Shown piece by piece: positions 35,491-49,760 of a stretch of DNA of 64,000 nt. A program made the translations under genes and the position numbers. How positions within the stretch are numbered: the first letter of the stretch is position 1; every line of letters begins with the position of its first letter. Below the pieces are notes generated by a model, which worked only from the letters and a program-made list of their open reading frames with translations, was not told where the DNA came from and ran no database searches. This DNA comes from Paraglaciecola sp. (lineage in GTDB: Bacteria; Pseudomonadota; Gammaproteobacteria; Enterobacterales; Alteromonadaceae). The stretch lies in the NCBI GenBank assembly GCA_009993955.1, contig JAACSL010000021.1, forward strand, positions 1 through 64,000, read 5' to 3'.

Positions 35491-35505
35491 AGAATAATAT
35501 ATTCT
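35491..35505. promoter_or_regulatory. candidate operator before symporter-murQ-namZ
   Basis: AGAATA-ATA-TATTCT, a perfect 6-bp inverted repeat, nine bases before the GTG of the symporter gene. Similar AGAATAAT palindromes lie between the TonB receptor and amidase genes, so an RpiR/MurR-type repressor could bind here. Inference from shared sequence. Confidence 0.45.
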
Positions 35506-35513
35506 GAGAAACC

Positions 35514-37142
35514 GTGGCGACTAACGAGATTATTGACTTCGTGCTAGCGCAATATACCTACATCGACTGGCTGGTTTTTATTGCTTATGGCCTGATATTG
35601 CTGGGCTCTGGCTGGATATTTAATCGCCGCTCGGCCACCAGTCAGGATTATTTTTTAGGCGGCAATGCCATGCCTATTTGGGTGGTGGCGATTTCCGTAT
35701 TAGCCACCTCGCAATCAGCCGCTACGTTTTTGGGAGGTCCAGATCAAGGATATCGCGGTGACTTTTCCTATCTCAGTTCGAATATCGGCGCTCTTATCGC
35801 CGCGCTGTTTGTGGCTAAATATCTGATCCCCCGTTTTTATCAATTCCAAGTTTTCACCGTCTATGAACTGCTAGAACAACGCTTTGGTAGCGCGGCAAAA
35901 CGTTATGCCGGCAGCATGTATTTGTTTGGTCGAGTCTTTGCCAGTGGAGCACGTTTGTACATGGCCGCAATTGCCATCGCCATGATTTTATTTGGCGATA
36001 TTGCCGCAATACACGTCGTAACCGCGATATTGCTCATCAGTGTTTGTGGTTTGCTCTACACCGTTTACGGGGGAATTCGTTCGGTAATCTACAGCGACGT
36101 GATTCAGTGTGCCGTCTATGTATTGGCGGCGCTAGCGGTGTTAATCACCTTGTTAACGAGCATCCCTGCCGATTTTAGTAGCATGCTAGCTGTCTTGGCT
36201 GAACCGGGCCCGGGGCAAAGTTCGAAGTTGGCCTTATTTAAGTTTGATCTAGATTTTACCGCCAGCGGTGTATTCAATTTTTGGTCGGTATTAACCGGGT
36301 TTGTATTACTCAACATTGCTGCCTTTGGTTTGGATCAAGACATGACTCAACGCATGTTGACCTGTAAATCGGCTAAACAAGGCAGTAAAGCTTTGCTGTA
36401 TTCGATCATCATGGTGGTACCCGTGATGTTTGTATTTATCGCCATTGGGCTGTTGCTGTTTATTTTTTATGATCGCCCTGATCTTATGCAAGTAGCAGGT
36501 AGCGCTCAAGTCATGCCTAATTTTCAAGGCGAACCAGTGACGATTTTTATGTATTACGTACTGAATGAAATGCCAGCAGGACTGAAAGCCTTGGTCACGG
36601 TTGGGATTGTTGCAGCGGCCTTATCTACCCTGAATTCGGGTTTAAATTCAATGTCGTCAGTGATTGTGCAAGACTTGTATCGACCTTGGCAGACTAAGCG
36701 TTATGGGAAGCGAGCAGAGCAACATTATGTCAAGGCAGGGCGCTGGGGTATGTTGCTGGTAGCCGCCGCCCTTGCTGCCATGGCAGCGTTGTGTTTTTAT
36801 TGGCAACAGTATGCCGATACACCCTTATTGCAGTTTGCACTGGGTGTTATGGTCTTTTCATACAGTGGCTTGTTGGGGGTGTATTTTACCGCATTATTTA
36901 CCCAACGTGGCAGTCAAGCTTCTGTATTGGCTGCATTAGTCTGCGGATTCAGTGTTACCCTATTGATGCAACCCTATGTGCAAAGCCTGTATCTGCCTAC
37001 CGACCTGCAATTCAATCTTGGTTTTACCTGGCAGCTTTGTATGGGCAGTTTTATTGCAACTTTAGTGTGCGTCAGCACCAGCCAACCTCCACCGCTGCAA
37101 AAGCATGCGCCGCAGCCTTCCCTTACTCTGCCTAACCAGTGA
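35514..37142 (+). CDS. sodium:solute symporter, probable muramic-acid/muropeptide transporter
   Basis: 542 residues from a GTG start, with about 13-14 hydrophobic helices. SSS-family motifs include [31 protein letters not shown] (about 44-74) and [21 protein letters not shown] (about 364-384). It should carry a solute inward with Na+. Its stop codon overlaps the murQ start (GTGA), and namZ follows, so the natural cargo is likely MurNAc or a MurNAc-containing fragment. It takes the place occupied by the PTS permease MurP in Bacillus and E. coli. The substrate is inferred only from context. Confidence 0.82.
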
Positions 37143-48172: not shown

Positions 48173-48173
48173 G

Positions 48174-49760
48174 ATGGGCGATACTCACACACCTTGGCTT
48201 ACTCGCTTATTGATTATTGGCTTTTTATTATTGCCCTTACAGCTCAGTCTAGCCAATGAGAAAACCGCACCAGTCAATTTAGACTCACAAGTCGCTGAGA
48301 TTATGCAGCACTTTCAAGTGCCTGGCGTAGCCATCGGCATTGTGCACAACAAGCAGGTAATCAAAGCCCAAGGTTATGGTGTGAAAACCTTGGGTTCACA
48401 ACTAGCGGTTGATGCTAATACGATCTTTAAAATTGCCTCCAATACTAAAGCCTTTACAGCGGCAGCGCTTGCCATCTTGGCTGACGAGGGCAAACTCAAA
48501 TGGCAGGGTCGAGTTAGCAGCTATTTGCCTGATTTTAAAATGTACGACCCTTGGGTGAGTGAACACTTTAATGTCATCGATTTGCTCACTCACCGCAGCG
48601 GTTTAGGCTTGGGGGCGGGGGATTTGATGTTATGGCCAGAGCCTTCTAGTTTTAGTCGCCAAGAAGTCATTCACAACCTGCGTTATCTCAAACCCACTGG
48701 CGAGTTTCGTGCTGACTATGCCTACGACAACCTGCTGTATATTGTGGCCGGTGAAATTGTGCCTGCCTTGAGTGGGCAAAGTTGGGAGGATTTTGTTGAG
48801 CAACGCATTCTGCGACGCCTGAATATGCAACATTGTTTTGCTGCTTCAGTGAGTGCCGATAGACAAGCAGATGTTGCCACTCCTCATGGCGTAGTTAATG
48901 GCAAATTACAAACCATTGTTCGCAAAAAAAATCCTCTACAAGCTAACGTATCTGCCGCTGCCGGCGGGATGCAATGCAGCCTGAATGACATGCTGACCTG
49001 GGTGACGGTGCAGCTGAATCAAGGCAAGCTGAGTCATGGTCAAACACTGTTTTCAGCGGCTCAGCATAAGATGATGTGGACGCCTCACACCATCATGCCG
49101 GTATCGGCTCGCAGTCAACGTTTAGACAATACACATTTCAGTGCCTACGGCTTAGGCTGGCGTATCAACGACATGAATGGCTATTTGCAGGTACACCACA
49201 GTGGAAGTTTAGCCGGCATGTATTCGATGGTGGGCATGTTCCCAGAACTTGATCTGGGTTTTGTGGTACTGACTAACCAACAATCCAGCGGCGCACGCAG
49301 TGCCTTAATGTATAGCCTGATGAAACCCTATCTTGGGGATAAGACCACCGACTGGATAAACGAATTCTCTCTAAAAAATGTAGCGGTACAAGCACCTACA
49401 CCAAAACCTGTGGCACACCAAACCGTATTGGCCAACCAAACCTTGGCGAAAGAAATAACAGGCGCTTACGACGATGCGTGGTTGGGGCGTTTTTTTATTG
49501 AAGCGCAGTCAAGTGATGCTGATTCTCCCTTGCAAATTCGTTCTGTGCGGGTGGAAAAGCTCATCGGTTTGTTTTACCCACACTCAGAAAAAGACCAGTT
49601 TTTAGTGCGCTGGGTTGATCGCAGCTTAGAAGCCGATGTATTTGCTACCTTTCAGCGTGACGCAACGGGCAAAGTTATCGGCATGCAGCTTATTCCTGCA
49701 TCCAGTGACATTGATTTCAGTTACGATTTTCAGGACTTGAACTTTAGCAAATCTGAATGA
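48174..49760 (+). CDS. secreted SxxK serine hydrolase (beta-lactamase family, DUF3471 tail)
   Basis: 528 residues from the ATG at 48174, one base after the stop of the fusion gene, so the two are co-transcribed. A signal peptide (about 8-28) precedes a class C beta-lactamase-fold domain with S89-N-T-K92, Y184-D-N186 and a C-terminal HHSGSLAGM in place of KTG. The last 110 residues resemble the DUF3471 beta-sandwich seen in related esterases and peptidases. It could be the true AmiE-type amidase, a D-amino-acid peptidase that trims stem peptides, or an esterase. Context favours a role in muropeptide breakdown. Confidence 0.85.
   Translation: MGDTHTPWLTRLLIIGFLLLPLQLSLANEKTAPVNLDSQVAEIMQHFQVPGVAIGIVHNKQVIKAQGYGVKTLGSQLAVDANTIFKIASNTKAFTAAALAILADEGKLKWQGRVSSYLPDFKMYDPWVSEHFNVIDLLTHRSGLGLGAGDLMLWPEPSSFSRQEVIHNLRYLKPTGEFRADYAYDNLLYIVAGEIVPALSGQSWEDFVEQRILRRLNMQHCFAASVSADRQADVATPHGVVNGKLQTIVRKKNPLQANVSAAAGGMQCSLNDMLTWVTVQLNQGKLSHGQTLFSAAQHKMMWTPHTIMPVSARSQRLDNTHFSAYGLGWRINDMNGYLQVHHSGSLAGMYSMVGMFPELDLGFVVLTNQQSSGARSALMYSLMKPYLGDKTTDWINEFSLKNVAVQAPTPKPVAHQTVLANQTLAKEITGAYDDAWLGRFFIEAQSSDADSPLQIRSVRVEKLIGLFYPHSEKDQFLVRWVDRSLEADVFATFQRDATGKVIGMQLIPASSDIDFSYDFQDLNFSKSE

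Follow-up and report, generated by a model that had tools for sequence, protein, structure and literature searches.

A probable peptidoglycan-fragment scavenging locus in Paraglaciecola sp., with a NagK-clade kinase on a separate contig as the likely substitute for MurK

We analysed a 64,000-nucleotide stretch of contig JAACSL010000021.1 of Paraglaciecola sp. (assembly GCA_009993955.1), hereafter the window, with a focus on the genes at 35491-49760, which an initial annotation made from the sequence alone had described as an eight-gene locus for scavenging peptidoglycan and its sugar N-acetylmuramic acid (MurNAc). All eight genes, encoding a sodium:solute symporter, MurQ, NamZ, an RpiR-family regulator, NagZ, a TonB-type receptor, an amidase-PBP4B fusion and a second serine hydrolase, were intact at 35514-49760 and belonged to the families named (Table 1). 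We consider it likely that this locus is the main half of a peptidoglycan-fragment scavenging regulon, the MurNAc route of which is completed by a kinase encoded on another contig of the same genome (C6). The gene set is conserved and probably co-regulated.

In the pathway that we propose, peptidoglycan fragments would be taken across the outer membrane by the TonB-type receptor. The AmiD-type lipoprotein would then strip the stem peptide in the periplasm, NagZ would remove N-acetylglucosamine (GlcNAc) and NamZ would remove MurNAc, which the symporter would bring in with sodium. A cytoplasmic kinase, most likely the NagK-clade enzyme of C6, would make MurNAc-6-phosphate, thus filling the role of MurK, which in many relatives is encoded next to MurQ or as one protein with it, and MurQ would yield GlcNAc-6-phosphate and D-lactate, with nagA and nagB-II on contig C40 completing the route. 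The freed peptide would be handled by an NlpC/P60 peptidase, an epimerase-like protein and a YkuD-like protein, so that the peptide half of the regulon, together with the likely kinase, would lie on C6. The import-to-MurQ flow of the initial annotation is retained as far as uptake and breakdown of MurNAc or peptidoglycan fragments through a dedicated receptor and symporter are concerned, but it left the kinase unnamed and did not include the C6 peptide half or an antiporter gene. It was also short of one step: a phosphotransferase system (PTS) phosphorylates MurNAc during import, whereas a sodium symporter cannot. Because the symporter delivers unphosphorylated MurNAc and MurQ needs MurNAc-6-phosphate, a kinase step is required.

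The enzyme assignments rest on curated models and solved structures. MurQ passed both models for MurNAc-6-phosphate etherase and was the sole MurQ over the cut-off in its own genome. Both NamZ Pfam domains were found in NamZ, which scored 353.8 bits against the solved structure 4jja. The nearest solved chain to NagZ was Bacillus subtilis YbbD/NagZ (321.8 bits; residues 35-582 against YbbD 43-582); the alignment spans both domains and the KHFPGHGDT-VDSH loop is kept, as in the two-domain Bacillus type, with the C domain scoring 26.8 in Pfam, under the cut-off of 31. The amidase part of the fusion scored 212 bits to AmpDh3 (4bxd) and 157.7 to AmiD, and it keeps HYT at 62, GHSD at 196 and KNDPG at 205, which we take to be the zinc-site motifs. 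The reactions given above for NagZ, NamZ and the amidase are predicted from characterised relatives. As the initial annotation had read them, three proteins carry lipobox-like patterns (NamZ LSAC, NagZ LVSC, amidase fusion LFAC); the signal of the second hydrolase is a plain one, without a lipobox. Gene overlaps of 4 bases (symporter-murQ), 1 base (murQ-namZ) and 23 bases (amidase-hydrolase) suggest two operons. No PTS domain was detected by Pfam or NCBIfam in the ten locus genes scanned, and a PTS-type mur locus of the Escherichia coli or Bacillus kind was rejected, since the MurP importer is missing among these genes.

Table 1. Features of the locus and of the associated C6 contig, with window positions unless a locus is named. 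PWM, position weight matrix score.
Feature	Position	Strand	Evidence
Candidate operator, 112 bases before antiporter gene	33927..33941	.	GGAATAATTTATTTT; PWM 14.6, second best in 64 kb, outside training sites
NhaC-type antiporter	34053..35426	+	PF03553 140.4 bits
Palindromic candidate operator before symporter operon	35491..35505	.	AGAATAATATATTCT
Sodium:solute symporter, predicted MurNAc importer (MurT role)	35514..37142	+	PF00474 121.6 bits
murQ, MurNAc-6-phosphate etherase	37139..38077	+	NF009222 469.9 (cut-off 255), TIGR00274 421.9 (cut-off 302)
namZ, exo-beta-N-acetylmuramidase, predicted lipoprotein	38077..39270	+	PF07075 256.7, PF20732 93.2
RpiR-family regulator (MurR role)	39261..40109	-	HTH_6 67.8, SIS 82.6
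Two-domain GH3 NagZ, predicted lipoprotein	40312..42201	-	PF00933 290.1
TonB-dependent-type receptor, N-terminal carboxypeptidase-regulatory-like domain	42305..45340	-	PF13620 52 bits
Candidate operator between receptor and amidase genes	45462..45476	.	AGAATAATATTTTCC; PWM 14.3
Weaker candidate operator before amidase gene	45642..45656	.	ATAATTTTTTATTCT; PWM 10.3
AmiD/AmpDh3-type amidase fused to PBP4B-type serine hydrolase, predicted lipoprotein	45668..48172	+	Amidase_2 89.2; NF002968 PBP4B 513.1 (cut-off 385)
Second beta-lactamase-family serine hydrolase with DUF3471, secreted	48150..49760	+	PF00144 203.2, PF11954 40.3
C6 kinase, NagK clade (own genome, contig C6)	L004:8165-9043		

The kinase that such a route requires was sought among relatives. 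In a family sample of 98 genomes, 44 had a MurQ over the cut-off, and 46 MurQ loci other than that of the window were mapped (two of these, L043 and L044, belong to a single genome and could be the same locus split over two contigs). A BadF-type kinase was present in 28 of the 46 loci, lying beside MurQ in 22, fused to it in 5 and about 5 kb away in 1, and these 28 kinases form a single clade (support 100/100), here called the MurK clade. A match to it occurred in 26 of the 44 MurQ-positive genomes, compared with at most one of the 54 others (G058, by a weak match of 48 bits). Kinase-MurQ fusions were seen at L163:11590-13431 and in L123, L017, L018, L022, L027 and L059; a profile search confirmed the L163 fusion (kinase 6-286, MurQ 312-611), which is apparently a two-step single polypeptide. 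We take the fusions in relatives as a pointer that the symporter-kinase-MurQ chain acts on MurNAc. The window locus has no kinase in the slot, and no MurK-clade kinase was found in its genome, where just two BadF-type kinases were detected (PF01869, E up to 0.001), one on C6 and one on C40, both in the NagK clade.

The C6 kinase heads an operon that continues with the NlpC/P60 peptidase, an L-Ala-D/L-Glu epimerase-like protein (255 bits, under the cut-off of 500) and the YkuD-like lipoprotein, the last recognised by motif reading, with no Pfam or NCBIfam match. In the kinase trees, the second of which left out nine near-identical or repeated rows, the C6 enzyme lay outside the MurK clade and inside the NagK clade, in a group of seven rows (support 100/99). 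The cut-off of 370 for the NagK (SO3507 equivalog) model NF046058 was reached by neither C6 (288) nor C40 (341.3), nor by the slot kinase of L037 (124). Orthologues of the C6 kinase (48-53% identity) were identified in six other genomes among 22 of the genus, and in five of these six the gene shares a contig with MurQ, at a distance of 12-18 kb. Its place is immediately after the second hydrolase in G099, G104, G106 and G114, where NlpC, epimerase and YkuD-like genes come next (in G114 no epimerase was found); three genes intervene between hydrolase and kinase in G103 and one in G100, the contig of which stops shortly beyond the kinase. The kinase-peptide module of G103 is bordered on one side by the end of the ATP-synthase operon and on the other by the EamA and second-hydrolase genes. 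In the window both neighbours are in place (EamA at 49792, ATP-synthase genes at 54123-58015), with no trace of the module between them (best match E 0.56), so that the module was most likely relocated in the window's lineage. Among the 18 MurQ-positive genomes of the genus, nine have MurK only, seven the C6 type only, none both and two neither (Fisher p 0.0023, relatedness ignored). Because the C6-type kinase directly follows the second hydrolase in four relatives and never co-occurs with MurK within the genus, it probably serves as MurNAc kinase in place of MurK, and gene content and order indicate that the kinase was most likely both replaced and relocated in the lineage of the window.

The symporter was followed through the best 80 of 340 symporter matches, in named genomes with the genus included and with bit-score thresholds set by us. 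This survey covers Paraglaciecola, Alteromonas, Pseudoalteromonas, Pseudidiomarina, Colwellia, Bowmanella, Glaciecola and other genera; some of its contigs are short (L179, 3.6 kb), and records very near the window's genome may have been left out. MurQ accompanied the symporter in 73 of the 80 loci, NamZ in 66, the regulator in 60, NagZ in 45, the receptor in 22, NlpC in 31 and the epimerase in 27. By score, not by tree, the 73 loci with both symporter and MurQ divide into 38 with a MurK-clade kinase, 21 with a NagK-like kinase and no MurK, and 14 with neither. Viewed from MurQ, the symporter was present in 35 of the 46 family loci. The initial annotation had named conservation of receptor and symporter beside unrelated genes as the outcome that would speak against it, and had suggested comparing gene order across Alteromonadales; the survey found instead that the arrangement recurs across the order, and it is therefore not a matter of chance. 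Within the genus, a close symporter (at least 699 bits) was found in 18 of 18 MurQ-positive and 0 of 4 MurQ-negative genomes, although it lies 24 kb from MurQ in G106 and on another contig in G107. We infer that it imports MurNAc with sodium. Six MurQ loci that have no symporter (L042, L055, L057, L058, L036 and L049) share a gene of about 360 residues divergent to MurQ, which is an alanine racemase in both cases typed (L042 and L057).

The receptor tracked MurQ in the same way: it occurs in 16 of the 22 genomes of the genus, all of them MurQ-positive (16/18 versus 0/4), and the two MurQ-positive genomes without it are G107 and the fragmented G100. Its description as a TonB receptor finds backing in the barrel part of the predicted fold and not in domain models. 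Pfam and NCBIfam revealed no plug or barrel domain, only the carboxypeptidase-regulatory-like domain. The predicted structure, built on a 12-row alignment (mean predicted local distance difference test, pLDDT, 61.7, with the plug region under 50), contains a barrel of long strands resembling those of TonB-dependent transporters (Foldseek, FusA, 9.2e-18; BtuB, Z 14.4, 4.5 A over 406 residues). This protein would carry peptidoglycan fragments across the outer membrane.

Co-regulation of the set is indicated by a candidate operator, AGAATA-N3-TATTCT, through which the RpiR protein probably controls it, presumably by direct binding. The earlier label of an RpiR/MurR-type regulator was accurate for the family (HTH_6 and SIS) and too specific for MurR, as the protein scored 169.9 on the E. 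coli MurR model NF012026, under the cut-off of 408. The site at 35491 matches RGAATANNNTATTCY perfectly, as no other place in the 4.16 Mb genome does. With a gap of 3 and at most one mismatch, the pattern, which recurs in front of locus genes, occurred 16 times in 157 upstream regions (regions shared by divergent genes being counted twice), compared with 0.25 times in mononucleotide shuffles. Four of the 26 genome places with at most one mismatch, which include the 33927 site, lie inside the 12-kb locus, and a control pattern had 14 places in all. The six best weight-matrix hits of the window all fall between 33927 and 45656, two of them in coding sequence (one at 34151, within the antiporter, and one at 42163, at the NagZ start as annotated); the matrix includes the 35491 site, the score of which is thus by construction. 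Sites similar to that at 45462 occupy the same place in G099, G103, G104, G106, G107 and G114, and sites similar to that at 45642 were found in these six genomes and G100. No further regulon member emerged at the eight places inspected among the 22 further ones, seven of which begin in open reading frames (that of L255 at the very end of one) and one just past a 3′ end. Upstream of the C6 kinase there was no site with two or fewer mismatches; the two best matrix hits of the 18-kb C6 stretch nevertheless both lie just before this kinase and are kept in G099, G100, G103 and G114.

Several observations weigh against parts of this interpretation. The C6 sites are weak, with 72 of 2000 region shuffles reaching the top score, and they are partial in G106 and were not found in G104. 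Neither kinase type is present in G107 or G111; the G111 genome is fragmented, and the G107 locus looks decayed, with NagZ split, no receptor found and the kinase gone while MurQ is intact. At the position of the GGW motif of the MurK clade, the C6 kinase reads GGH. By our own mapping this motif corresponds to S133-P134-L135 of Tannerella MurK, said in a passage of PMC10465942 to make room for the lactyl group, and the substrate may accordingly be GlcNAc. In G104, moreover, the C6-type kinase is the only one of the NagK clade (the other match has 46.9 bits) and may serve GlcNAc. Motif comparison did not discriminate between MurNAc and GlcNAc. As for the symporter, 11 of the 46 MurQ loci lack it, and 7 of the 80 symporter loci have no MurQ in the stretch (L120, L140, L151, L159, L161, L179 and L191), all but L120 having a MurK-clade kinase, though L179 is just 3.6 kb long. 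A carboxylate-binding arginine like that of SiaT was rejected, as all 16 sequences have alanine in the aligned column, placed by what we take to be the SiaT substrate-site residue numbers; a pair of invariant arginines close to it (140 and 147) cannot be placed by sequence. Among the loci without MurQ, L140, L151, L159 and L161 (three Colwellia and one Alteromonadaceae bacterium) combine symporter and MurK-clade kinase, with a LysR regulator near the pair in L140.

In an alternative that we regard as unlikely but worth keeping in view, the C40 kinase phosphorylates MurNAc and the C6 enzyme is a GlcNAc kinase only. The C40 gene shares its nag operon with nagA, nagB-II and the gene for a NagP-like transporter (513 bits, under the cut-off of 625), and its product shares both the NagK clade and the GGH motif with C6. 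A NagK-like kinase without MurK is also what 21 of the 73 symporter stretches contain, and bifunctional MurNAc/GlcNAc kinases exist, as in Clostridium acetobutylicum (work cited in passages of PMC10465942). It is the C6 type, however, and not the nag kinase, that resides in the MurQ locus of five relatives and, within the genus, is never found together with MurK, which favours C6 as the MurNAc kinase.

Less probable is import of 1,6-anhydroMurNAc, a lytic transglycosylase product, with AnmK in place of a MurNAc kinase feeding MurQ. The kinase-free window locus and the AnmK gene on C30 (468.5 bits) would fit, as would G104, where an AnmK-like gene (PF03702, 308.4 bits) and a single-domain GH3 lie between symporter and MurQ, and L180, where an AnmK-like gene adjoins the symporter; but NamZ enzymes release MurNAc and not its anhydro form, MurK-clade or NagK-like kinases are the ones found by score in 38 and 21 of the 73 loci, and symporters with an AnmK-like neighbour scored 711-722 bits to that of the window, against 823-857 for the nearer genus type. 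L216:4703-8567, apparently the same locus as that of G104, and L180 represent another symporter subtype with an AnmK-like kinase beside MurQ, accompanied in L216 by a single-domain GH3, nagA and nagB-II, a variant pointing to anhydroMurNAc use. Recycling or remodelling of the cell's own wall, with the receptor carrying other cargo, is similarly improbable: as the genome's only MurQ over the cut-off, the window's must also serve AnmK-derived MurNAc-6-phosphate, yet AmpG, AnmK and a second, single-domain-type NagZ are encoded elsewhere, to our knowledge the AmpG route can do without lipoprotein enzymes, symporter or receptor, and MurQ persists in G107, where no receptor was found, the kinase is missing, NagZ is split and the symporter lies on another contig. 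With recycling genes present elsewhere, the receptor, symporter and lipoprotein enzymes are additional to own-wall recycling.

The unit probably begins upstream of the range first described, at the antiporter gene at 34053, which is counted in on the strength of the matrix hit before it. Relatives of the antiporter occur in 10 of the 46 MurQ loci and 13 of the 80 symporter loci, and the protein is a candidate D-lactate exporter or peptide importer. On C6, the kinase operon faces two further genes. The product of L004:9213-10553 is secreted, has 446 residues and matches nothing in Pfam or NCBIfam, and relatives of it occur in 25 of the 80 symporter loci; its model (pLDDT 87.3) folds like a class A beta-lactamase/PBP (Z 20.5, 2.5 A over 228 residues), and WSSSK is invariant across 12 aligned rows. 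It may represent a new serine-hydrolase family of peptidoglycan salvage. L004:10558-11715, beside the peptide-salvage genes and found in 9 of the 80 symporter loci, encodes a DUF819 membrane protein that is a candidate murein-peptide importer. Between regulator and NagZ, the relatives L213 (3903-5144), G099, G100, G106 and G114 carry a gene of 331-414 codons, HGSNAT/NagX-like in L213, where alone it was typed (196.6 bits, under the cut-off of 480); the window lacks this gene and has a gap of 202 bases at this place. The only RNA element of the window at gathering score is an L31 ribosomal protein leader at 15702-15752 (55 bits).

Taken beyond this genome, the data lead us to favour, by a modest degree, a wider view: TonB-energised uptake of peptidoglycan fragments with a full RpiR-controlled regulon may be widespread in Alteromonadales, cell wall shed by other bacteria may be a regular food in the sea, and the kinase step may swap among MurK, a MurK-MurQ fusion and a recruited NagK paralogue. 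The locus offers a concrete gene set for growth of marine bacteria on peptidoglycan, singles out a candidate for the receptor that takes cell-wall fragments through the outer membrane, and predicts the kinase that would complete the path in an organism without MurK.

Among known systems, the initial annotation had drawn a parallel with the B. subtilis cluster, the order of which we take to be murQ-murR-murP-amiE-nagZ-namZ. The parallel is fair for the enzymes, since both have MurQ, an RpiR regulator, NamZ, a two-domain NagZ and a beta-lactamase-fold hydrolase; unlike B. subtilis, the window has no PTS importer, an AmiD/AmpDh-type zinc amidase domain and an outer-membrane receptor. E. coli, presumably arranged as murR / murQ-murP-yfeW, has MurQ, an RpiR regulator and a PBP4B homologue (513.1 bits) in common with the window, in which symporter and kinase replace the PTS and lipoprotein NagZ and NamZ are added. 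In Pseudoalteromonas prydzensis, loci L148 and L162 contain a symporter-MurK-MurQ-NamZ set, and the L148 strain, DSM 14232, is in our understanding the same as ACAM 620. Growth on MurNAc was compared for ACAM 620 and its mutants, according to passages of PMC9537276, a link to the L148/L162 set that is suggestive, not proof. The Pseudoalteromonas ong cluster for oxidised chitin, as presented in parts of the same paper (PMC9537276), is likewise an Alteromonadales scavenging cassette with a TonB-dependent receptor, an SSS symporter and a MurR/RpiR repressor, but it differs in substrate and enzymes. MurNAc use has been predicted from MurQ plus the nag pathway (a passage of PMC5507952). The main text of PMC2996990 contains no MurNAc terms, and among the literature matches listed, covering titles, abstract starts and passages and not subscription papers or supplements, there was no description of this type of Alteromonadales locus.

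The closer characterised parallel for import is murT-murK-murQ of Tannerella forsythia, on which we draw from passages of PMC5790795, PMC5388701, PMC7670621 and PMC10465942. There, MurT imports MurNAc and its gene stands with those of MurK and MurQ; MurNAc supported growth of an E. coli murP mutant only when it had both MurT and MurK (PMC5790795). MurT is placed in the sodium symporter superfamily in the introduction of that paper, which we follow, and in the major facilitator superfamily in its discussion; its likeness to the window symporter is one of superfamily, by that description. Tannerella, a MurNAc auxotroph with AmpG in the operon according to these passages, also has NamZ enzymes (a title cited in PMC10465942). 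The same symporter-kinase-MurQ order is found in many Alteromonadales relatives. Unlike Tannerella, the window lacks this contiguity, having no kinase in the slot and a NagK-clade kinase elsewhere, and its locus has a TonB-type receptor, an RpiR regulator, a lipoprotein NagZ and an amidase-PBP4B fusion. We regard the system as a murTKQ variant that has a receptor in the outer membrane and lipoprotein enzymes in the periplasm, and in which, in the lineage of the window, the kinase has most likely been exchanged and moved.

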